Source of the DNA: Terebella lapidaria
Taxonomy: Eukaryota; Annelida; Polychaeta; Terebellida; Terebellidae
Direction: 5' to 3'
Assembly: GCA_949152475.1 (NCBI GenBank)
Contig: OX424570.1
Span: 2,344,181 to 2,408,180, forward strand
Length of the DNA: 64,000 nucleotides
The notes below the pieces were generated by a model. It was not told where the DNA came from. It worked only from the letters and a program-made list of their open reading frames with translations, and searched no databases. Both the position numbers and the translations under genes were made by a program. Positions 5,840 through 63,030 of this stretch are shown here, one piece after another; position 1 is the first letter of the stretch; each line of letters starts with the position of its first letter.

Positions 5840-5845
5840 TGTGAT

Positions 5846-5986
5846 AGTAGTAAGGACCCCCCTTTGAGGTTTTTTTGGAAAAACCGATGGTTTTTGCTAT
5901 GGTTATATGATGTCACTTCCGGTTTCTGTTTCGGTTATACGTCACGTGGTTTGAGTGGTTATAATCATGTGGTTTCGGTGGTTATA
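5846..5986 (+). repeat. left terminal inverted repeat of the Polinton-like element
   Basis: 141 bp matching the reverse complement of 10797-10937 with about two substitutions. It contains CACTTCCGG (ETS-like), TACGTCACGTGG (CRE/E-box like) and repeated GGTTATA motifs. A further TGACGTCACTTCCGG lies just inside at about 5988-6002. Confidence 0.9.
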
Positions 5987-6018
5987 TGACGTCACTTCCG
6001 GTTTCGGTTTAGGGTTCG

Positions 6019-6321
6019 TCATAACGTACCCGTAAATGTTTGAAAAATCATAACGTTCACATAAATGTTTGAAAAATCATAACGTACAACCCATGGAATA
6101 TCATAACGCACCCATAAATGTTCGGAAAATCATAACGGTCCCATAAATGTTTGGAAAATCATAACGTTCCCATAAATGTTTGAAAAATCATAACGTACCC
6201 ATAAACGTCTGAAAAATGATAACGTACCCATTTATGTCTGGAAAATCATAACGTACCCATGTCTCAAAAAATCATAATGCACCCATATATTATCGACAAT
6301 CATTACACACCTATAAATGTT
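6019..6321 (+). repeat. 29-bp subterminal tandem repeat, about 11 units
   Basis: Units of the form CATAACGTACCCATAAATG plus TTTGAAAAAT follow one another without spacers, with substitutions increasing away from the TIR. They lie just inside the left TIR of the Polinton-like element. They are probably non-coding and could be a terminal regulatory or packaging-type array. Confidence 0.85.
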
Positions 6322-6375
6322 GAATATTATGATATATATTTCAATACATTATGAAATCATTTTTATTCACTTTAT
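6322..6375 (+). repeat. 54-bp direct repeat, left copy
   Basis: Identical to 7340-7393 over 54 bp (starts GAATATTATGATATATATTT). The two copies flank the Penelope-like insertion and look like a long target-site duplication. Confidence 0.85.
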
Positions 6376-7339
6376 GTTGAATATGTTGAATAGACGTGGA
6401 ATCAATACCCAGTATCAAGTATTCCGAGCAAACAAAACAGGGTCCGTTATCCAATCTCATAGTCCGGGGACAGAAAGTCATATCAGGCATACGAAGTGAG
6501 AGAAAACAAAAATGACAGGGAAACTCATGAACCCCCGTAAATGGCCATCAGGAGGTGAAATCAGGTGTTCCGGAAAGAGTGAGCATTTCCTGCCCCACTA
6601 GTGGCACCCGTCATGAATTCCCCAAAATTAACATGAAAATAGATCTAGTTGCATGGCAGACATGGATTTGCTGTATTTATCAACCAGATCATGATGACGT
6701 CCATAGAATTTCTTAAACGCAGCGATAAGTCTTGGTAAAACATATCCTTGTCGTAGCAGTTTAGAGACTAGCTGGGCACTTCGATAGACAAAGTCCTCAT
6801 ATTTGCAACTAGCTCTGGAATAGCGTATAAGTTGAGAAACAAACACACCATATGCCGGTGACATAGGAATGATGCTGCTTAGAAAAGGGAAATTGACTAT
6901 GGAAAAATTGAAATCATCACGTTTGTCATATAATCTAGTTGACAGGTTAGAATCATTATCAATCTCCAACCTCAGGTCTAGATAGTTGGAAAAATTAGCG
7001 GATTCTGTAGTATCCTTAATTTCAAGTTCCTTAGGATATATGATATCCAAATAATCACCAAACTTGGGATTATTTAGCGACAATACATCATCTATGTATC
7101 GGAAAGTGAAATTAAAATTACATGTTAGTTTCTTAGAACCTCCTCTTTGTAAATGTTGGATAAAATCTGATTCATATGAGTATAAAAACAGGTCTGCCAA
7201 TAATGGTGCACAGTTTGTACCCATGGGAATACCAATAGTTTGTTGAAATATTCGACCACCAAATTCCACAAAAATATTATCAATCAGAAAATTAACCATA
7301 TTTACCACATCTATTTCAGTATATTTGTATGGGGCATCA
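6376..7339 (-). mobile_element. 5'-truncated Penelope-like retroelement inserted in the Polinton-like element
   Basis: 964 bp between the two copies of the 54-bp direct repeat. Read on the minus strand it has the C-terminal half of a reverse transcriptase (7339 to 6628), then a non-coding 3' tail that ends in sequence shared with repeat R2. Penelope-like elements are often 5'-truncated with target duplications of variable length. The clean direct repeats and the absence of this sequence from the host element's logic mark it as a later insertion. Confidence 0.75.
6628..7308 (-). pseudogene. reverse transcriptase C-terminal part, Penelope-like
   Basis: About 226 codons are open. The frame continues a little further up, to 7339, where the element is truncated. 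Motif B is visible as GIPMGTNCAPLLADLF and the catalytic motif C as FRYIDDVLSLNN, so both C-motif aspartates are kept. The end reads KFYGRHHDLVDKYSKSM. Motif A and everything N-terminal to it are missing, so it cannot be functional. Close relatives in the window are at 37930-38661 and 54105-54484, with smaller scraps at 24.3, 30.8 and 31.9 kb. No endonuclease domain is seen. Confidence 0.85.
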
Positions 7340-7393
7340 GAATATTATGATATATATTTCAATACATTATGAAATCATTTTTATTCACTTTAT
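7340..7393 (+). repeat. 54-bp direct repeat, right copy
   Basis: Right copy of the target duplication flanking the Penelope-like insertion; identical to 6322-6375. Confidence 0.85.
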
Positions 7394-7621
7394 TGGTAAA
7401 TTTTCTTTAACTTTGTTTTCACTATTTTTGTTAGATTTTTCCCTTTTTTCAATCTATATTCAATCTGAAAAAAAAATGAGCGAGTATATGACATTTTTTC
7501 AGGGTTCTTTATTTCACAGTACACATTCACTATACATACAATTTCTACATACAATCAAAAGGCATGTGAAAAAGTACGCATGCACAATATACAGTTATCA
7601 TATAGGGGTAGGGTTTTCTTC

Positions 7622-8248
7622 TTAATATTCAATGTCCTCATCCATGGAGTCCTCTTCTTCCGGCTGAACAACATCATCAGAGAGATGATTGAGATTCTCC
7701 ATGAACAAATTCAGCGCTTCCTCGAAGTTGGCTCCCCGTCCCATATATTTTTCCACAGCTTTCATGATTTCAGTGTGGATCATGCTTCTTTGCAACAAAT
7801 GGTTCATCTTTACCATGGTTTTGTACATTTCCATCAACCCCGTCTTCTTTTCCAGTTTCACCTCATCTTCGGGCAACTCGGGTGTATATTCCATGACGCG
7901 ATGCAGCAGGTACTCAAAGGCCGTTTCGCATACGTCATGATCCTGGACTTCCTTGCATCCATTTTGGAACCAGCTTACGACTTGATCGAACCAGTCATGT
8001 TTCATCATGATAGCCATGTTAAGCGCATCTTTGAATGTAGCACCTCGCGCTCTGTATTCTTCAACCGCCTTTTCAATTCCAGCATGAATCTGACTTCTCT
8101 GGAGCAGATGGATGCAATTCGCCACTCTCTGGTAGGTGTTAATCAATTCTTCTTTGATTTTTTGCGCGACCTCTTCTTCCGGCACTCCTTTTTCCTCAAT
8201 TTCGCCCTGAACAGACTTCAGCATGCGTTTGAAGGCGCTTTCGTCCAT
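7622..8248 (-). CDS. unknown 208-residue protein with two internal repeats (Polinton-like element)
   Basis: Starts at an ATG at 8248 and overlaps the end of the ATPase frame by 31 bp, a compact arrangement typical of viral-style gene clusters. The protein is acidic and helical-looking and contains two related units of about 70 residues. Unit one has INTYQRVANCIHLLQRSQIH then EKAVEEYRARGATFKDALN; unit two has MEMYKTMVKMNHLLQRSMIH then MKAVEKYMGRGANFEEALN. The shared core is HLLQRS-x-IH...KAVE-x-Y-x-x-RGA-x-F-x-x-ALN. No signal peptide or membrane segment is present. I do not recognise the family; a role in the virus-like element (structural or regulatory) is only inferred from position. Confidence 0.7.
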   Translation of the reverse strand: MDESAFKRMLKSVQGEIEEKGVPEEEVAQKIKEELINTYQRVANCIHLLQRSQIHAGIEKAVEEYRARGATFKDALNMAIMMKHDWFDQVVSWFQNGCKEVQDHDVCETAFEYLLHRVMEYTPELPEDEVKLEKKTGLMEMYKTMVKMNHLLQRSMIHTEIMKAVEKYMGRGANFEEALNLFMENLNHLSDDVVQPEEEDSMDEDIEY

Positions 8249-9069
8249 TTTTCTGGGGAACTCGTCTTCCGATGACTTTTCGTCACGAACTCGTCATCGT
8301 GTGCGGGACATCTCGGCAAGTGCATTTGTAGCTCGTAGTTATTTGAAAACAGGGCTCCGCAGCTGAAACATTTCATTGTCTTGTCCGACTGCCATTCTAG
8401 AGATTTTGTATTACTTTGAGATGCTGCGGGTTGGTCCGAGGCTGGACTCTCGGACGACTGGCTGTGAAGCGGGTTCGGTCGCAGGCGTTTATTTTCCTGT
8501 GTTGTTAGTTTCAGGTCCACGACGAGATGTCCGTAGGGCTCAGAGGTTGCGCTGTTGAACCCTTGAAGAAACTTTTGGGGGCAGGCGGGATACATTTGCC
8601 TGGCCAGGGTCATGATTTGCTGCTGATCGATAGGGTTTCTGAACAGAGTCAGATAATGACAGTTTCTCCTCTGAGTCGGGTCCTTGCTGTAGTAGAGCTT
8701 CTGGTTCAAGCAAATGACGCTCAGATTCCGATGGTGGCTCCCTTCCGTGAACAAGTCCGTGATTCTCGGATCCTTGGCGGAAATAGACATGAGGTCGTCC
8801 AGGACGATGACGTTATTGTCCGTAGGTGAGACGAAGTCATCGGAATCCAGATTGATAGGTATCCCCTGTTTGAACTGCACGGGAGGCTGCACACTAGACC
8901 TTGTGATGTCGTAGAGGGGTTGCCATCTCTTGTACAGCCATATGATCCTGGTAGGGGCGGGGAATATTTGACCGGACTCCAAGAGGGATTTTACCCAAGC
9001 CGTCTTCCCACACCCAGTAGGTCCTGACACGTTCAGGGTGAAGGGGTGTTGAAATACCAGGGGATTCAT
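8218..9069 (-). CDS. Polinton/adintovirus-type packaging ATPase with C-terminal zinc finger
   Basis: 283 codons from ATG at 9069. Residues about 8-30 hold a P-loop (LNVSGPTGCGKTAWVKSLL) and residues about 86-94 a Walker B (NVIVLDDLM). A serine/asparagine sensor-like stretch (LSVICLNQKLYY) follows near 118. This order and spacing match the FtsK/HerA-type A32-like ATPases that Polintons use to package DNA into capsids. The C-terminus adds CFSCGALFSNNYELQMH...C, a C2H2/C2HC-like finger, after a serine-rich linker. The usual Polinton ATPase is a little over 200 residues, so the tail is an extension. It lies directly upstream of the 208-residue gene and downstream of a QP-rich tract on the same strand. 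Confidence 0.85.
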   Translation of the reverse strand: MNPLVFQHPFTLNVSGPTGCGKTAWVKSLLESGQIFPAPTRIIWLYKRWQPLYDITRSSVQPPVQFKQGIPINLDSDDFVSPTDNNVIVLDDLMSISAKDPRITDLFTEGSHHRNLSVICLNQKLYYSKDPTQRRNCHYLTLFRNPIDQQQIMTLARQMYPACPQKFLQGFNSATSEPYGHLVVDLKLTTQENKRLRPNPLHSQSSESPASDQPAASQSNTKSLEWQSDKTMKCFSCGALFSNNYELQMHLPRCPAHDDEFVTKSHRKTSSPEKWTKAPSNAC

Positions 9070-9101
9070 ATAATTGACGGACCAGTGCTTTTGCTGCTGT
9101 G

Positions 9102-9415
9102 GCTGAGGATGAGGTTGCCAAGTCTGTGGCTGTGGCTGAGGCTGAGGCTGTGGCTGAGGCTGAGGCTGAGGCTGTGGCTGAGGATGAGGCTGTGGCTGAG
9201 GCTGAGGCTGCCAAGGCTTTGGCTGAGGCTGAGGCTGTGGCTGCCAAGCCTGAGGCTGAGGCTGTGGCTGTCAAGCCTGAGGCTGAGGCTGCCAAGCCTG
9301 CGGCTGAGGCTGCCAAGCCTGAGGCTGAGGCTGCCAAGGCTGAGGCTGTTGCTGAGGCTGAGGCTGAGGCTGTGGCTGTGGCTGAGGCTGCCAAGCCTGA
9401 GGCTGAGGCTGCGAT
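9102..9415 (-). repeat. hexanucleotide-type coding repeat (GGCTGA/GGCTGT/GGCTGCCAA)
   Basis: About 310 bp of GGCTGW units on the plus strand. Read on the minus strand these give QP/QA dipeptides (QPQPQAWQPQ). Long open frames on both strands here (AEAEAV and LRLRLW types) are by-products of the repeat. Confidence 0.9.
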
Positions 9416-9501
9416 GGATAATCCATATGGTGCAATTTTTGATGTCTTTTCAGGTCTTGCTTCCAATTATATGTCTTGTGGCAGAGAGCACAAGAATTCA
9501 T
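9271..9501 (-). CDS. C2H2 finger plus QP-rich tract (part, Polinton-like element)
   Basis: Begins with ATG at 9501. Residues 4-25 form a C2H2 finger (CALCHKTYNWKQDLKRHQKLH), followed by a glutamine/proline-rich tract encoded by the GGCTG repeat. It lies immediately upstream of the ATPase on the same strand and is likely a part of the same fossil gene cluster. A nucleic-acid-binding role is suggested by the finger. The element is treated as a fossil, so no further reconstruction is given. Confidence 0.6.
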   Translation of the reverse strand: MNSCALCHKTYNWKQDLKRHQKLHHMDYPSQPQPQAWQPQPQPQPQPQPQQQPQPWQPQPQAWQPQPQAWQPQPQA

Positions 9502-9743
9502 GTTGCCTCTTCAACGTCTCTTCTTCGAATGATAGTTCCTAGCTGATATCGCCAATTTTATACTCTTCAGGACCACTTTTGTTGTATACTTCAAAATGAT
9601 GTCTTCCCTTGCTTGATCAGCAACTTGGCCCGTTCCACAGTCTGTTGTGTGGGTGTGACTAACTTTACCACTACTTTTTCTGTCTTGTCCGCCTTTCCAT
9701 TGACAGTGTGGCTCTTTTTTTCTTTCTTTTCCTATTGATTTTA

Positions 9744-10045
9744 GGTATCAATCTATTACCACAAATACAGCCAGATTTTGATGATTCCAATAACAAACGT
9801 AAAATACAACATTTTGCAATGGAAACAAAGCCCGACCAAATAGTTTATCAAACGTCACAATGGCGTCATCAGGGGCAGACAGTGTGATAGATGTAGTTGT
9901 TTCTACTGTACACCTGATGGAATTAGCATACAACTACCCAACAACCTATGAAAACAATTTAAAAATCCGAAACTAACCCCATGGAATAGATACATGACAA
10001 GTACAAAAGTACCCAATCACAAGCCAGAAGGCTACTGAGTTGATG
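9744..10045 (+). repeat. R1 dispersed repeat, near full-length reference copy
   Basis: Starts GGTATCAATCTATTACCACA and runs through CAACATTTTGCAA, AAAGCCCGACCAAATAG, GGGGCAGACAGTGTG and CCATGGAATAGATACATGAC to GGCTACTGAGTTGATGG. At least 12 further loci in the window share parts of it, in both orientations. The body is about 300 bp, with no tRNA-like box or poly-A tail recognised, so its class (SINE-like or short DNA element) is open. Confidence 0.8.
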
Positions 10046-10105
10046 GTATCCTCGGGGACAGATTTAACGTCCGCCAGCAGTGACACCGACTCAGTGGTAT
10101 GAATG

Positions 10106-10232
10106 TAGGTATCAATCTATTACCACAAATACAGCCAGATTTTGATGATTCCAATAACAAACGTAAAATACAACATTTTGCAATAGAAACAAAGCCCGAC
10201 CAAATAGTTTATCGAACGACACACTGGCGTCA
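10106..10232 (+). repeat. R1 partial copy
   Basis: Repeats the first 125 bp or so of R1 in the same direction, about 360 bp downstream of the copy at 9744. It ends near GGCGTCAT, where element-specific sequence resumes. Confidence 0.8.
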
Positions 10233-10329
10233 TATTTCTTTCTTCCAGGCATCCACTGCGGGAAGGTACGGCTTGAGGGGCATGTTGATCCTTCAGCGTC
10301 CGAAATGCGAATGAGCAAAAGCTCAGTAC

Positions 10330-10480
10330 AAAGACTTATATAGTTTTCTCCTTCGAAATGCTCGATTCTGATTGGTCCATTCGAATGGGGTGACGGTAGT
10401 GACGTCATCTAACGAGCGTGGGGGACGAGCGTGGGGGAATACCGGGACTCCTATTGGTCCGTTCGAATAGGGGGACGCCA
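10330..10480 (-). promoter_or_regulatory. promoter-like cluster upstream of the element's minus-strand genes
   Basis: Read on the minus strand this holds two perfect CRE sites (TGACGTCA near 10402 and 10473). Two inverted-CCAAT contexts (GGACCAAT) are associated with TTCGAATGGACC blocks. A TATA box (CTATATAAG) lies near 10336-10344, followed by a plausible start region. Order and spacing fit a classic RNA polymerase II promoter driving transcription leftwards through the finger/QP, ATPase and 208-residue genes. Function is inferred from motifs only. Confidence 0.55.
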
Positions 10481-10489
10481 TTGACGTCA

Positions 10490-10796
10490 TAATTTACCTA
10501 GCCTATTTTGCGACCTACTCAATCACCCATTACATGACCTATCACATATCCAACTATAACCAACGGGACGTTGTCATAACCCCATTGCATCACCTAGGCC
10601 TATTATATCACTTATTAAGTCACTTATTACACAATCTATAATGTAGAAAACGAAACTGATGTTGCATAACCTTCTAGTGCATTGCATAACCTATTACACA
10701 ACCCATTATGTCCTATAACCGCATCCAGGCCTATTATGTACTCCATAACCATCTATCACGTCGTATAGACACTGTATAACCACCTATTACGTGACG
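10490..10796. repeat. right subterminal degenerate repeats
   Basis: Loose repeats of the type CCTATTAcatnACC and CATAACC precede the right TIR, mirroring the subterminal array next to the left TIR. Units are too diverged to count reliably. Confidence 0.5.
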
Positions 10797-10937
10797 TATA
10801 ACCACCGAAACCACATGATTATAACCACTCAAACCACGTGACGTATAACCGAAACAGAAACCGGAAGTGACATCATATAACCATAGCAAAAACCATGGGT
10901 TTTTCCAAAAAAACCTCAAAAGGGGGTCCTTACTACT
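10797..10937 (-). repeat. right terminal inverted repeat of the Polinton-like element
   Basis: Reverse complement of 5846-5986 with about two differences. It is followed directly by the TGTGAT target duplication at 10938-10943. Confidence 0.9.
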
Positions 10938-10943
10938 TGTGAT

Positions 10944-15227: not shown

Positions 15228-16433
15228 TCAAGGTCGCACCTCCACTGATCCCCTCCCGGGACCATACCAGGATTGTAGCTGGTGAGATTCGTACACTTCC
15301 AGGTTAGCTACCAGTTCAAAGTAATTTGGACCTTCAGATAATAGTCGATCCCGGAACACCCGCCAGGTATCCATACAGATATTGATAGTTACACACAGAC
15401 CAGCCATGTAAACATGGGACACTGTCCTATTGGCCACCAATTTCCGCAGGCGATCTCCGTGAAACTGCGGGATCCCCATCTGATAGCTGACAAAAGTGAT
15501 ATTGGGCAGTGAAGTCGCCAGAAAACCAGTAATATACACGTCCTCAATCCAGAACATTGGCACCCTGGCAGCAGCAGCGTAGAGTTCCGGGACAAGTTCC
15601 CTCGAGAAGCCATAGAGTAGACCTGCAGCATACGTCGGGTATTGCTCCTTTCCAGGAAACGTGTCATTTTTTACGTCCCATTTGCAATTTTTCCCAGTGT
15701 CTCGAAGTATTGGTGTTCCATTTGGGTAGATTTCCCCCCAAAATGTGCGCACTTTGTTGTCATGCGCTAGCAGGGCCTGTGCTAAGCCAGGAATGTTGAC
15801 AAAAGCATCATCGTCAGTTTTAAAAGCGTACCGAATGTGTGAGCAATACATGTGCATCCACTTGATGGCAGCCACGCCTTTCAGAGATAGGTTGAAGTAC
15901 GAGTCTTGAAAGTTTGCTTGGACGATGTCGTGGTACATATCGCTTTCCCGGCCAAGTCTCTGTTGCCGTGTAGTGTCAGTGGCATTGATGTCTCCTACCA
16001 TGAAGACCCGTCGGAAGCCGTATGAGGCCAGGAATTCTCCGTCGCCCCAGGTGTTGCGGACTAACGCCCTGTTGTCAATCCTGTCTTGCGCTGACACGAT
16101 GTAAATCAGATAGTTCAGAGCTTTATCAGTACACAACTCAGGATGGTTGATTGGGAAGTCTATCCATGCATACGGATGCGTGGAATTCATCATATCTTTA
16201 TCTGCGCTTAGTTTGAGGGCCACGTCTCCATGATGTTCAGCCTGTGAGTCACGTTTCATTTTGTTGCATTGAATCATCGATATAGACTCCGCCGTCAACC
16301 CATCTGGATAAACTTCCCGTTGTGAATTTCGTGTGTCAATTGGAGGTAAATGAACTAAGCGGTAATTGATGAGTGTTATTACAAATCCAGCGAAGAAGGT
16401 TAATCCAAGTGTATATCTGCGGAGATGCGCCAT
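15228..16433 (-). CDS. beta-1,3-galactosyltransferase-like (GT31) type II membrane protein
   Basis: 401 codons from ATG at 16433 (context AAACATGG, strong Kozak), uninterrupted, as is common for GT31 genes, many of which are intronless. Residues about 8-28 (LGLTFFAGFVITLINYRLV) are the single signal-anchor of a Golgi type II protein. A short stem follows, then the catalytic domain. Family motifs seen are RNTWG (near 125), FMVGD, ESDMYHDIVQANFQDSYFNL, the DxD motif in FKTDDDAFVN (metal/UDP-sugar binding), YPTYAAGLLYGFS and the IEDVYITGFLA acid motif. Several N-x-S/T sites are present. It would transfer galactose or GlcNAc in beta-1,3 linkage onto glycans; the exact acceptor cannot be told from sequence. 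This is the one clearly intact host gene in the window. Confidence 0.9.
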   Translation of the reverse strand: MAHLRRYTLGLTFFAGFVITLINYRLVHLPPIDTRNSQREVYPDGLTAESISMIQCNKMKRDSQAEHHGDVALKLSADKDMMNSTHPYAWIDFPINHPELCTDKALNYLIYIVSAQDRIDNRALVRNTWGDGEFLASYGFRRVFMVGDINATDTTRQQRLGRESDMYHDIVQANFQDSYFNLSLKGVAAIKWMHMYCSHIRYAFKTDDDAFVNIPGLAQALLAHDNKVRTFWGEIYPNGTPILRDTGKNCKWDVKNDTFPGKEQYPTYAAGLLYGFSRELVPELYAAAARVPMFWIEDVYITGFLATSLPNITFVSYQMGIPQFHGDRLRKLVANRTVSHVYMAGLCVTINICMDTWRVFRDRLLSEGPNYFELVANLEVYESHQLQSWYGPGRGSVEVRP

Positions 16434-37929: not shown

Positions 37930-38661
37930 TTACCCAAAAATATAACATGAAAATAGATCTAGTTGCATGGCAGACATGGATTTGGTGTATTTATCAACCA
38001 GATCATGATGACGTCCATAGAAGTTCCCAAACGCAGCTATAAGTCTTGGTAAAACATATCCTTGTCGCAGCAGTTTAGAGACTAACTGGGCACTCCGATA
38101 GACAAAGTCCTCATATTTGCAACTAGCTCTGGAATAGCGTATAGTTGAGAAACAAACACACCATAATGCCGGTGACATAGGAATGATGCTGCTTAGAAAA
38201 GGGAAATTGACTATGGAAAAATTGAGATCATCACGTTTGTCATATAATCTAGTTGACAGGTTAGAATCATTATCAATCTCCAACCTCATGTTTAGATAGT
38301 TGGACAAATTAGCGGAGTCTGTAGTATCCTTAATTTCAAGTTCCCTAGGATATTTGACATCCAAATAATCACCAAACTTGGGATTATTTAGCGACAATAC
38401 ATCATCTATGTATAGGAAAGTGAAATTAAAATTACATGTTAGTTTCTTAGAACCTCCTGGTTGTAAATGTTGGATGAAATCTGATTCATATGAGTATAAC
38501 AGGTCCGCCAATAATGGTGCACAGTTTTTCCCCATGGAAATACCAATAGTTTGTTGAAATATCCGACCACCAAATTCCACAAAAATATTATCAATCAGAA
38601 TATTAACCATATTTACCACATCTATTTGGGTGTGACCGGGGACCGGAGTTGTAAGGTCCAT
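37930..38661 (-). pseudogene. reverse transcriptase C-terminal part, Penelope-like
   Basis: Open over about 240 codons and closely related to 6628-7308. It keeps IDVVNMVN, a motif B with changes (GISMGKNCAPLLADL) and motif C as LYIDDVLSLNN. Near SPALWCVCFSTIRYSRA the protein departs from its relatives for about nine residues, consistent with two compensating small indels. One residue is also missing after ADL. Motif A and the N-terminal half are absent. The few codons before IDVV differ from the 6.6-kb copy, so the truncation points are different. Confidence 0.8.
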
Positions 38662-49421: not shown

Positions 49422-49767
49422 AGTGCATTCTCTACTATATGATCATTGTTTATCAGGAGTGCGTTATTTACTATATGATAACTGTTTATTAGTAGTGCGT
49501 TTCTAGTATATGATCATTGTTTACCAGGAGTGCATTATTTACTATATGATCACTGTTTATCAGTAGTGCGTTATCGAGTATATAATCATTGTTTATCAGT
49601 AGTGAGTTATCTACTATATGATCATTGTTTATCAGAAGTATATTATCTACTTATGATCATTGTATTATCCGTAGTGAGTTATCTAGTATATAATCATTGT
49701 TTATCAGTAGTGCTTTATCTACTATATGATCATTGTTCATCAGTAATGGGTTACTATATGACCTTTG
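49422..49767 (+). repeat. 36-bp minisatellite, block 1
   Basis: About nine units of the form TATCTACTATATGATCATTG plus TTTATCAGTAGTGCGT, with small indels. Because the unit is 36 bp, frames through it read RYLLYDHCLSVV repeatedly; this is not taken as a gene. Confidence 0.9.
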
Positions 49768-50345: not shown

Positions 50346-50355
50346 ATGACCTTTG

Positions 50356-50716
50356 CTTATCAATTGTACGTTATCTAGTATATGATCATTGTTTATCAGG
50401 AGTGCATAATTTACTATATGATCACTGTTTATCAGTAGTGCGTTATCGAGTATATGATCATTGTTTATCAGTAGTGCGTTATCTACTATATGATAATTGT
50501 TTATCAGTAGTGGGTAATTTACTCAATGATCACTGTTTATCAGTAGTGGGTTACTATATGATCATTGTTTATCAGTAGTGCGTTATCGAGGATATGATCA
50601 ATGTTTATCAGTAGTTGGTTATTTACTCTATGATCATTGTTTATCAATAGTGTGTTATCTACTATATGATCACTGTTTATCAGTAGTGCGTTATCTATTA
50701 TATGATCATTTCTCAT
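50356..50716 (+). repeat. 36-bp minisatellite, block 2
   Basis: About ten further units, ending at TATATGATCATTTCTCATGT. Continues block 1 across the insertion. Confidence 0.9.
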
Positions 50717-57333: not shown

Positions 57334-60022
57334 TAGTGTTCGGACTCGGTGATGTTTTCAAGCTCGATCATCGTTGGGAAAATAACGACCGATGATCGAG
57401 CAATCTCGAGCTTTTCTCAATGTAATTATTCGACGAGTGCTTGCCCGAAAAATGGACGATGATACGAGATGTAAAGCGATTCACTGTGTGATTCATGTTA
57501 ATGCAAATAAATCCAGCGTGAAACACATCGATGAATGGAAACACATCTAGATTGTGTTTGTCAAATTTGTGTTACTTGTCTGCCCATTAATTCATCAACA
57601 TCTTAAATAATCAAATCATAACAGAAATGTGAAAGGTCGAGGAAAAAGCAGCAAAATAATTTGAAGTTCCATCTCCCCCGGCCGAGTGGGAGGCTCAGGG
57701 AGCATTCGTTTTTGACAAATGTATATAAACACCGACTTCACATTTTACCCAAACCCATTCCCTGAATTCGATGACAAACATAAAAAAAATGTGCTTCAGA
57801 TTCGTATTTGTAATCTCTTGAGATGTGGGGTGAGATTTGTGTTGAATTAATAAAAAAAGTAACTTGATGATTGTTCAGCGTTACATTCATTTATCTTTAA
57901 CAAAACCCCCAATTTTGTAATCATTGGAAATGCATCATTTTTTACAAACAAAAATCGGTAAACAGATCTGACATTCTTGTCTGAAATCCAAACAAATAAA
58001 ATAATCGCTGTATATATGTGACTAATGTGATTATCAGCAATCTCTGTCAAACATTAAACAACACCAAATATGTACAAAAAGTGGCCAACAAGTAACAAGT
58101 TCAACTTCAGTCGGTTCACTTAGCCTTCACTTTCGATTCTTGTTCAGGGAAATGAGCAATCAATCGTCTCTGGCAACAGATTACAGCGTTTTTTTAGATT
58201 ATGTTACCAGCAAGGCTGAACACCCTCTCACTGGGTACACTTGAAGCAGGGATGGAAATGTACTTGCGAGCCAGGATGGACAGAGTGGGGAACAAGCAGG
58301 ACCGTTGTGCCCACCATTTCAGTGCCGGTTCATTCGACCGAGGTTCCAGGAGGTCTCTGTCCAGCTCTGTCATGAGAGGCTCTCTGATCTCGGCTTCTGT
58401 TTGAATAACATCGTCCAGCCAACCTGATTCATATTTTGCTTTTTTCTACCTATGGTTCATTCCATGCACTTACACTCGCTACGTTCCCACTATCTGCTGA
58501 TTCCGGCAGGGAACTTCCTGTGCTCAAACCACTGGCCTTAGTGTCAGTGGCCTCACTGGCTTGATTCTCTTCTTCCGCCTTCTGCTGCCCAATCAGTGCC
58601 TAAGCTTCAGTTTTCAGCAGTTCAATCGTCTGCATTTTCTCATCCGGATCCACGAATCCCAGTTGCTTAGTTTCGGGGTGCAACAGACAAGCGAGCTTGA
58701 TTTCCTTGTTCTCGAAGTCCCGTTTGTTGAGATTGTCTTCCATGGTCTTCTTCAACTTTCTGACAACAGCTCCATCTTCATCCGTCAAGTCCAAAGTGGC
58801 ATTGATCTTCAAGCATGAAAGTACCCTCTGCAGCGTAGGTTCTTTGTCGCCACACATCAGAATTGTAGCTCGTTTGAAGGGTTCAAAGATGGCCAAGAGA
58901 CTCTCCACAAGACTCTGGTCAGCAAAACTGTACAGGTATGTTTTCAGCTCCTTGACATTTCTTGTGGCAGCAGGATCTAGTATTGTAGCATGTAGTGCAG
59001 GTAATTGCTCAGTGAATCTGACTAGCATGTCGTACGTGCTATTCCATCGAGTGGATACATCCTGTATCAAATGATGACCTTGGTGGGCATCTGGGAGAAG
59101 CAGTTTTTGTTTCTCAGTCAGAAAGCCCATGGCAAAAGGGCTTATGAGAAAGAAAGTTACAATTTTCCTTCCACGAGCAATGATCTTCGACACCTGAGTT
59201 ACTGCCAGCCCTGCCTTCACAGCTAAGTTCAGCTAAGCGCGGCCAATTTAACAGTGTGAAAGCTTTCACTTCGTTTGCTGCGTTATCACTGACAGTAGTT
59301 GGGACCGACGACAAATTCCTTTTGTTGGCAGCTTCGTCAAGGACACTATGGATGTTTTTTGCAGTGTGTGACCCCTCAACTCTGGTTGTCTGAAGCACTT
59401 TACTTTTCATTTCCCAGTCATCTGTTTTGATGTAGTGACCGGTGATTGTCTCAAATGATTCATTGTTCAATGAAGTCCATGAATCATGTGTGGCGGCCAC
59501 ATTCTGAACATTGCTGATCTCCATCGTCAGTACTTCTTTTTCTTTTGTGTACATCTGGTCCAATAATTTACGAAGTGTCTCAGCAGTTGGAGGCACATAT
59601 CGTGGTTCCATGGCGGCCAGGAGCTTCCGAAAACAGTCTTTCTCCACTACAGAAATGGGCTGCAAGCCATGAACGACAAAGTTTGCAATCGCCTTTGTGA
59701 TTGCTTCCTTGCATGAATTTGGTAAGGGGGCAGTCACACCGAGTGCTGCAGAAATTGACGGCTGTGCTGGTCTCACATCTTCATTGCTATCAGACAGCCC
59801 GTGTGCACTTTTCAAGTGAACAGCCAAGTTGGTTGTCTGACCCTTGTATGCATAGACCTTCTTACACACATTGCATTCGGCTTTTTGCTTATCATCTTCT
59901 TTAACTTCGAAATATTTCCAAACCCACGACCTTTTTGTGCTACCGCGTGATGCCATTTTCACATCGCTTAAAGCCCAAGCTTGAGCGATTGATCGATCGT
60001 TCGGGCGCTCGATCTAACTCTA
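57334..60022 (-). mobile_element. decayed hAT transposon with 8-bp TSD
   Basis: Bounded by GTTGATAT on both sides (57326-57333 and 60023-60030), the 8-bp duplication expected of hAT. Ends are short imperfect inverted repeats (TAGTGTTCGGACTCG against TAGAGTTAGATCGAG). It contains one transposase gene on the minus strand. Length 2,689 bp is normal for the superfamily. Confidence 0.9.
58140..59956 (-). pseudogene. hAT transposase with BED zinc finger, inactivated
   Basis: ATG at 59956 (MASRGSTKRSWVWKYFEV). Residues about 28-60 hold a BED finger (CNVCKKVYAYKGQTTNLAVH, then H). The catalytic region follows: AATHDSWTSLNNESF and SDNAANEVKAF are hAT blocks around the first and second acidic residues. 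Near 59220 a small deletion removes the expected C-x-x-H-x-L-N-L block and shifts the frame. The rest continues at 59220-58600 (LIQDVSTRWNSTYDMLVRF). Beyond 58600 the reading is further interrupted, but the hAT dimerisation motif is still visible at about 58193-58296 (KYISIPASSVPSERVFSLAG), closed by an in-frame stop. A full-length protein would have been about 600 residues. Nonfunctional. Confidence 0.88.
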
Positions 60023-62399: not shown

Positions 62400-63030
62400 G
62401 TAGACACAGGAGAAATGATCATATAGTAGATAACGCACTACTGATAAACAATGATCATATAGTAGATAACACACTATTGATAAACAATGATCACAGAGTA
62501 AATAACACACTACGTATAAACAATGATCATATAGTAAATAATGCACTACTGATAAACAGTGATCATAGAGTAAATAAGGCACTCCTGATAAACATCGATC
62601 ATATAGTAGATAACGTACCACTGATAAGCAATGGTCATATAGTAACCCACTACTGATAAACAATGATAATATAGTAGATAACACACTACTGATAAACAAT
62701 GATCATAATAGATAACTCACTACTGATGAACAATGATCATAAGTAGATAACACACTCCTGATTACCAATGATCATATACTACATAACACACTAATGATAA
62801 ACAATGATCACATAGTAACCCACTACTGATAAACAATGATCATATAGTAGATAACACACTCCTGATAAACGATGATCATATACTAGATAACACACTGATG
62901 ATAAACAATGATCATATAGTAACCGACTACTGATAAACAATGATCATATAGTAAACAATGCACTCCTGATAAACAATGATCATATACTAGACAACGCACT
63001 ACTAATAAACAGTAATCATATAGTAAACAA
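62400..63030 (-). repeat. 36-bp minisatellite, inverted block
   Basis: About 17-18 units, reverse complement of the block at 49.4-50.7 kb (CACTACTGATAAACAATGAT then CATATAGTAGATAACA). Some units lack about 8-12 bp. The 130-codon minus frame through it is a repeat artefact. Confidence 0.92.

Follow-up and report, generated by a model that had tools for sequence, protein, structure and literature searches.

Short Polinton-type elements carrying a zinc-finger-flanked packaging-type ATPase gene in the annelid Terebella lapidaria

The element and its main gene

The window analysed here, a stretch of 64,000 nucleotides from contig OX424570.1 of Terebella lapidaria, contains an element of 5092 bp (5846-10937) with (AGT)2//(ACT)2 ends, whose features are collected in Table 1. 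The terminal features claimed in the original prediction were recovered: the AG-type ends were present (first bases AGTAGTAAGGAC, last bases GTCCTTACTACT), the 141-nt terminal inverted repeats (TIRs) differed at two sites (TIR positions 17 and 41) and the TGTGAT target-site duplication (TSD) was perfect. The predicted packaging-type ATPase was also found inside: with the frame read through one stop, Pfam Pox_A32 matched at E 2.3e-5, which passes the curated cut-off, and an unbroken relative gave E 9.8e-5, slightly below it. The combination of TIRs, TSD and internal ATPase in the window element is far beyond chance. An Rfam search gave no match.

Table 1. Features of the element and its target site, in window coordinates.
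Feature	Position	Strand	Remark
Left TSD, TGTGAT	5840..5845	.	
Left TIR, 141 nt, starts AGTAGT (Maverick end motif)	5846..5986	+	motif named in PMC8097293
29-bp tandem repeat TCATAACGTACCCATAAATGTTTGAAAAA	6019..6260	.	arm holding the repeat matched in other copies
Later insertion, ~1.0 kb, 54-bp direct repeats 6322-6375 / 7340-7393	6322..7393	.	missing from L037
Reverse-transcriptase fragment	6628..7299	-	RVT_1 E 0.0025, under curated cut-off
Main gene (zinc finger, Pro/Gln/Trp repeat, ATPase, zinc finger, helical C-terminus), broken in window	7622..9501	-	single ORF of ~540-700 aa in relatives
C-terminal helical piece with internal duplication	7622..8248	-	part of main gene
A32/FtsK-HerA-like ATPase piece; frame lost close to its end	8218..9069	-	
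N-terminal piece: C2H2 finger and repeat start; ended by in-frame stop within repeat	9271..9501	-	
Later insertion, ~0.5 kb, 134-bp direct repeats 9736-9869 / 10100-10233; splits small upstream ORF	9742..10239	.	
Start of small ORF (MPLKPYLPAVDAWKKYQQEKK...), interrupted in window copy	10230..10283	-	62-64 aa in relatives
Right TIR, terminates ACTACT	10797..10937	-	
Right TSD, TGTGAT	10938..10943	.	

The length of about 5 kb had been taken as the natural size of the element, which did not hold, as the window copy consists of ~3.58 kb plus two later insertions (~1.5 kb), comparable to the 3591 bp of L037 and the 3600 bp of L038. The reverse-transcriptase fragment, which we take to be Penelope-like, has a second copy elsewhere in the window (37930-38661).

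The main gene encodes, in order, a zinc finger, a Pro/Gln repeat, an A32-like ATPase, a further zinc finger and a helical domain. The ORF at its C-terminal end had been read as a separate novel gene and proved to be part of the ATPase gene; the two pieces lie in one frame in 10 clade-A cores as well as in L037, L038 and L061. The ATPase piece contains GPTGCGKT and VLDDLM, presumably its Walker A and Walker B motifs. The packaging ATPase expected of a Polinton is represented by a Pox_A32 match near the cut-off, in a frame that is broken in the window and open in many relatives, in which the small ORF is often found upstream. AlphaFold modelling without an alignment gave an all-helical, low-confidence C-terminal piece (pLDDT 49.8) and a poor ATPase model (pLDDT 41.9), and neither sequence searches of the PDB nor a PHROGs search returned anything meaningful or useful.

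Copy number, gene content and selection

Copies were examined in 21 regions including the window, 16 with both ends and 5 with one end. The ends were (AGT)2//(ACT)2, the end motif of vertebrate Mavericks (PMC8097293), or an (AGC)2 variant, and all 16 two-ended copies were flanked by perfect TSDs of 6 bp, the length given for Polintons (PMC10045372), so that the family shares AG-type ends, TIRs and TSD length with Polintons. It had been proposed that other copies with different 6-bp duplications would support a real lineage, and 14 distinct hexamers were indeed found among the 16 copies. The alternative of a one-off internal loss is ruled out by the copy number and the TSDs.

Uninterrupted single-gene copies measured 2994-3600 bp, most palindromic copies ~5.7-6 kb and two-gene forms with a second TIR type (type B) ~5.4-5.8 kb, and forms of 1.7-1.9 kb with no scored ATPase match were also present (C9:18036481-18038422, C12:4173863-4175549). 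Loci L061, C3 and C15, where gene X lies beside the ATPase, were considered as full-length Polintons and rejected on account of paired family TIRs ~5.4-5.8 kb apart. In the short forms examined, ATPase matches over the full length were 88-97% identical to the ATPase of the window element, apart from a single match at 78%; for broken pieces the lowest value was 79%. A pattern search for relatives among viral_contigs gave 62 matches, of which none was confirmed.

For the ATPase gene, the best 150 of 420 candidate places in the genome were scored; 97 spanned at least 219 of 231 residues, and six of these held a stop. No integrase, PolB or capsid-cassette match was scored within 30 kb of 145 of the 150 places. 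None of the 150 places had a match to protein-primed PolB, a mark of autonomous Polintons, within 30 kb, and an rve integrase, another such mark, lay within that distance of five, three in a distinct relative and two beside a decayed remnant. Decayed integrase and capsid matches were found 12-16 kb from two ATPase places at C4:13.96 Mb. Among capsid genes the search covered the one adjoining the integrase, probably a minor capsid gene judging from gene order, and at 148 of the 150 places no match to it lay within 30 kb.

Comparisons in which dS exceeded 0.05 gave dN/dS values of 0.19-0.46, mostly 0.2-0.4. One clade made up of short forms had 16 synonymous and 14 non-synonymous variants (p 7e-4); this test used 30 variants, drawn from 10 cores belonging to 6 elements whose two arms are not independent, and gave p 0.026 with singletons alone. 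Two decayed copies, L021 and L036, were without constraint (ratio 1.6). The protein has been preserved by selection. Part of this selection may date from the time of the gene in a full-length Polinton, because in a relative that bears an integrase (C2:32918473, C11:34642983, C13:19089471) the ATPase has the same architecture and is 64-66% alike.

Larger Polintons and palindromic forms

At C1:76507652 lies a P1-type Polinton with gene X, an integrase, the capsid-cassette gene, PolB and an ATPase of its own; the end of this element and the type-B TIR were 98% identical over 212 aligned bp. For the TIR of the window element, the end at C1:49820505 gave 89% identity and that at C13:34118937, which belongs to a 19.5-kb P1-type element, gave 81%. 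The family therefore shares its ends with enzyme-encoding Polintons of the same genome, as non-autonomous derivatives do. PolB holds stops in both of the best end-sharing Polintons, the best 40 of 234 candidates, which were scored, included no end for the majority of young P1 Polintons (~40 in all), and the single young P1 element inspected (L068, 901 bp) had no family-type TIR where expected.

The P1 ATPase, mostly open and located between PolB and integrase (L066 1391-2005; 41 of 150 matches at least 91% alike), was only 37% identical to the main-gene ATPase, and invariant columns are common to both. The original prediction of a non-autonomous lineage mobilised by larger relatives is thus supported in part, by Polinton-type ends in multiple copies, by the gene content around the scored places and by integrase-bearing Polintons with related ends. 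That the short element is a simple internal deletion of these end-sharing Polintons was not supported, because they encode a different ATPase.

Near-complete palindromes accounted for 10 of the 16 two-ended copies, the window copy not among them, and gene pairs were divergent in 17 cases and convergent in 5. These ten have a snapback-type arrangement, in which one terminus stands at both ends of an inverted duplication with an optional single-copy loop, and a loop of 349 bp was present in L023, L024, L026, L027 and L030. One palindrome, recognisable by its fixed junction, has in turn multiplied. Assembly artefact is ruled out, since the TSDs lie outside the palindromes, the arms differ by ~0.5-6% and the 349-bp loop recurs across loci. 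A larger Polinton (C17:27762159-27778397) is also palindromic.

Origin of the family and comparison with known systems

Judged from sequence, the window element is probably a decayed member of a lineage of Polinton satellites that carry a gene, exist in many copies and are mobilised in trans. The unit lacks integrase, DNA polymerase and capsid-cassette genes, and its ends resemble the ends of Polintons in the same genome that bear an integrase. Because of the shared ends, the end motif and the 6-bp duplications, the protein-primed polymerase of the Polintons would most likely replicate it in trans and their integrase would most likely insert it. The large gene it has kept encodes a zinc-finger-flanked packaging-type ATPase that differs from the ATPase of the Polintons whose ends resemble its own, and the most likely task of this ATPase would be to bring the DNA of the element into helper-made particles. 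The ATPase may in this way steer packaging, with the zinc fingers as putative readers of the element's repeats. Linear intermediates would snap back during replication, giving the observed palindromes with one end at both termini. We suggest only tentatively the fuller scheme, in which a chromosomal satellite of an endogenous virus-like element uses a heterologous, zinc-finger-guided ATPase to redirect helper capsids to its own DNA and transposes as self-complementary palindromes. This would be the equivalent in eukaryotes of the phage satellites that hijack packaging.

Alternatively, the short forms may be debris that arises repeatedly by deletion from full-length Polintons with the main-gene ATPase, the frames being open since the copies are young and the gene being a passenger with no satellite lifestyle. 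Clade-A copies lie 0-5 nt in 693 from their nearest copy, palindromes and tandem copies resemble replication accidents, and the larger palindromic Polinton fits this account as well. However, none of the larger elements found had the main-gene ATPase (among ATPases linked to an integrase, the closest is the one 64-66% alike, against mostly 88-97% among short forms), constraint was detected inside a clade composed entirely of short forms, and the end-sharing Polintons encode a different ATPase; we regard this origin as rather unlikely. An interference element, kept for shielding the host cell through an extra ATPase that poisons helper packaging in a dominant-negative manner, would draw on the same evidence as the satellite, and AAV snapback genomes in excess inhibit their parent (PMC8235507), but the Walker A and B motifs appear intact and this reading is improbable. 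A segmented (multipartite) Polinton, whose short element provides the packaging ATPase missing from the large one, would fit the related ends and the presence of a conserved ATPase on a small unit of its own, but was dropped once the P1 element showed its own ATPase and is largely refuted, surviving as a very improbable case only if the two ATPases divide their functions.

The family resembles Polintons/Mavericks (polintoviruses) in its (AGT)2//(ACT)2 ends, 6-bp TSD, TIRs and A32/FtsK-HerA-type packaging ATPase. It differs in size (mostly 3-6 kb, against 15-20 kb), in the lack of an integrase, PolB or capsid-cassette match, in the fusion of the ATPase to C2H2 fingers and a long Pro/Gln repeat, and in the frequency of palindromes. 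Like non-autonomous DNA transposons and MITE-like deletion derivatives, it has the ends of an enzyme-encoding element and would need the enzyme in trans, but it keeps a gene under selection. Virophages, Polinton-like viruses and transpovirons are also small DNA elements that rely on a larger virus; virophages and Polinton-like viruses have capsids, whereas the family has no capsid-cassette match, no transpoviron gene was recognised among its ORFs, and its host is presumably not a protist. Phage-inducible chromosomal islands are satellites with their own packaging-specificity protein, and the likeness to them is by analogy only, with no homology. The palindromes recall the snapback defective genomes of AAV, in which one end is duplicated and inverted around a single-copy loop or none, in left-end and right-end versions (PMC8235507). 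In contrast to these, the family is inserted in chromosomes with TSDs and spreads as such, and it presumably derives from a dsDNA Polinton with protein-primed replication rather than from a parvovirus.

No earlier description of gene-bearing or palindromic Polinton derivatives was found in titles and abstract openings among the matches listed, with subscription papers and Repbase reports outside this scope, and phrases for non-autonomous or mini-Polintons were absent from the literature searched, apart from 'Polinton-derived' in three papers. The structure of the palindromic insertions, that of a larger Polinton included, is evidence that replication passes through linear intermediates which prime themselves and are later integrated. 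It is difficult to see why a packaging-type ATPase should be under selection as the sole gene kept between Polinton ends if packaging did not matter to these elements, and the family offers a direct, testable handle on this.

The window element and its broken gene

The Polinton-like element in the window is 5092 bp long, starts with AGTAGTAAGGAC and ends with GTCCTTACTACT, and its 141-nt TIRs with 2 mismatches and the TGTGAT duplication at both flanks confirmed the intact ends of the original prediction. The most frequent end motif among vertebrate Mavericks is (AGT)2//(ACT)2, with a proposed role in jumping back during protein-primed replication (PMC8097293), and 6 bp is given as the characteristic Polinton TSD (PMC10045372).

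Features of the window (positions in the window)
Feature	Position	Strand	Detail
Polinton-like element	5846-10937
Gene piece	9271-9501	minus	C2H2 finger and start of Pro/Gln/Trp repeat
Gene piece	8218-9069	minus	ATPase
Gene piece	7622-8248	minus	helical, internally duplicated
Small upstream ORF	10230-10283		interrupted start
Further copy of the element's RT	37930-38661	minus
36-bp repeat array	49422-49753
36-bp repeat array	50346-50710
36-bp repeat array	62414-63025		repeat shared with the two arrays above, reversed
BED-zinc-finger ORF	59114-59956	minus	zf-BED 1.2e-12
Galactosyltransferase-like ORF	15228-16433	minus	1.8e-39

The three gene pieces belong to a single gene, which relatives carry as one ORF (653 aa in the fetched region L023), so that the ATPase and the novel gene of the original prediction are parts of one gene. 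The stretch from the ATPase to the C-terminus (473 codons) is open in 10 cores of clade A, a clade of short forms, and in regions L037, L038 and L061. In the window copy, the gene is broken by an in-frame stop within the repeat and by a loss of frame towards the end of the ATPase piece. This copy also carries two later insertions, one (~1.0 kb) containing an RT fragment flanked by 54-bp repeats and the other (~0.5 kb) containing 134-bp repeats. Their removal leaves ~3.58 kb, comparable to L037 (3591 bp) and L038 (3600 bp), and the predicted unit size of about 5 kb was revised accordingly. Element L028 also contains a copy of this RT.

A conserved ORF of 62–64 aa lies upstream of the main gene (L023, L037, L061 and others), with a nearly invariant terminus ...VERAKLLIKQGKTSF. 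It was intact in 11 of 18 sources scanned (16 elements, L061 and L036), is split by the second insertion in the window copy, and possibly encodes a regulator or DNA-binding partner.

Copy number and palindromic forms

The TIR search of the assembly (761.6 Mb, 438 contigs) gave at least 50 matches (40 scored of 251 candidates). Among 20 fetched regions and the window, 16 elements had both ends, whereas L034, L035, L036, L039 and L040 had a single end only. All 16 had perfect TSDs comprising 14 distinct hexamers (CACAGG occurred twice; L037 and L038 shared one), and this check on further copies upheld the predicted multi-copy lineage, to which the window element belongs rather than being an accident. 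The ATPase search gave at least 150 places (150 scored of 420 candidates); at least 219 of 231 residues were covered in 97 of the 150, with a stop in 6 of these, and the remaining 53 matched over a shorter stretch, among them a tandem array with 1242-bp units on contig C11. This array (C11:31706752-31710951) consists of four finger-ATPase gene fragments, 74% alike and arranged head-to-tail at exact 1242-bp intervals, and more fragments occur as far as C11:31.90 Mb; it is a piece of the short-element family converted to tandem repeats. TIR-bounded forms of 1.7–1.9 kb that contain none of the 150 scored ATPase places (C9:18036481-18038422; C12:4173863-4175549) are perhaps gene-free, MITE-like derivatives.

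Near-complete inverted duplications were found in 10 of the 16 elements (L021, L023-L027, L029-L031, L033), L031 being a compound palindrome; L032 is a partial one. In L023, L024, L026, L027 and L030 the window-left arm is the source of both ends, and a 349-bp single-copy loop containing the small upstream ORF separates the arms. The source of L021 is the opposite arm, and this element lacks a loop. In L029 and L033 the left arm occupies either end, but the genes are shortened and face inward, indicating further rearrangement. Neighbour pairs within 3.6 kb among the 150 scored ATPase places were divergent in 17 cases, convergent in 5 and tandem in 6. The palindrome itself spreads, as one and the same 349-bp junction is found at several loci whose flanks differ, and palindromes arose more than once, since L021 was built from the opposite end and falls into another sequence clade.

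Integrase-bearing Polintons of the same genome (P1) include a palindrome as well (C17:27762159-27778397), in which gene X (a gene beside the integrase or finger-ATPase in some loci), integrase, capsid-cassette gene and ATPase share exactly one mirror centre, which lies within PolB sequence. Left-end and right-end, symmetric and asymmetric forms are common to the short elements and to AAV snapback genomes, as the latter are described in PMC8235507. Palindromes would most naturally originate by snapback of the displaced or growing strand in protein-primed replication and subsequent integration. Head-to-head PolB pairs ~12 kb apart in another Polinton lineage (C16:15680186-15697360; C1:2932450-2949455) are perhaps palindromes too.

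Selection on the ATPase gene

Pairwise dN/dS was 0.19–0.46 wherever dS exceeded 0.05 (up to 472 codons; 55 comparisons). Close pairs ranged from 0.07 (L023/L024) to 1.6 (L021/L036), and the genes of L021 and L036 are no longer whole; post-insertion decay is therefore visible. Distinct variants in clade A (10 open cores from 6 elements, all short forms, with one real copy as reference) comprised 16 synonymous and 14 non-synonymous changes against a neutral expectation of ~75% non-synonymous (p 7e-4; 1e-4 to 3e-3 under other transition weights), and singletons alone comprised 9 and 10, respectively (p 0.026). Restriction to open frames biases this test against stops and not against missense changes, and a palindrome's two arms are non-independent in it. 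Some of the more ancient constraint could date from before the short form arose.

Related Polintons and the origin of the short elements

Of 115 integrase matches, 40 belong to P1, being 89% or more alike across 349 or more of 366 residues, and the integrase of L035 has rve and chromo domains. PolB is present in P1, and a further gene upstream of the integrase, with no Pfam match, is a putative minor capsid gene by the gene order in PMC8097293. Between PolB and integrase, P1 encodes a 204-aa ATPase of its own (fetched region L066, 1391-2005). At least 91% alike in 41 of 150 matches, this protein shares 37% identity with the window's ATPase, lacks fingers and repeat and scored below the Pox_A32 cut-off. 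An integrase-linked relative (C2:32918473, C11:34642983, C13:19089471) has an ATPase 64–66% alike with the short-element architecture, and neither PolB nor capsid-cassette matches were found within 30 kb of it. When all rows of the integrase, PolB, capsid-cassette and ATPase match lists were compared, integrase, PolB and capsid-cassette matches were absent within 30 kb of 145 of the 150 scored ATPase places, in agreement with the original prediction as far as these three genes go; the five exceptions were the three integrase-linked relatives and two places at C4:13.96 Mb next to a decayed Polinton.

Two ends at C1:49781465 and C1:49820505 match the window's TIR at 89% identity; their flanking hexamers differ, and they may not belong to one element. 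An end at C13:34118937 matches it at 81%. This C13 end is part of a 19.5-kb element (C13:34099423-34118920) that has related ends on both sides, 86–87% identical to the C1 end. The element's integrase, its ATPase, gene X and the capsid-cassette gene are open, and its PolB has stops. A second TIR type, type B (AGTAGTATGGGG; minimum counts from 40 scored of 59 candidates), bounds short elements of ~5.4–5.8 kb, with gene X also in at least seven, and palindrome-like elements of ~6.1–6.6 kb. Its end matches the start of the P1-type element C1:76507652 at 98% over 212 aligned bp, and that element carries gene X, integrase, capsid-cassette gene, its own ATPase and PolB with stops. Among 49 typed loci, gene X lay within 4 kb of the integrase at 21 and within 4 kb of the finger-ATPase at 21, and at no locus was it this close to both. 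The short elements thus combine P1-type Polinton ends, sometimes together with gene X, and an ATPase from another Polinton lineage.

P1 integrase and polymerase would, judging from these sequences, mobilise the short elements. The window's predicted ATPase is probably kin to packaging ATPases: it matches Pox_A32 close to the curated cut-off and can be aligned with the ATPase of P1; a predicted model and a PDB sequence search gave no structural support for this kinship. Packaging may be the reason for its retention, and its fingers may serve as DNA-recognition parts. That the element's own ATPase acts as a packaging-hijack factor, redirecting helper capsids to its own DNA, is a tentative and rather doubtful proposal. 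Polintons, non-autonomous transposons and snapback defective genomes have all been described before, and the literature searches found no description of a Polinton satellite with a selected heterologous ATPase gene that transposes as a palindrome.
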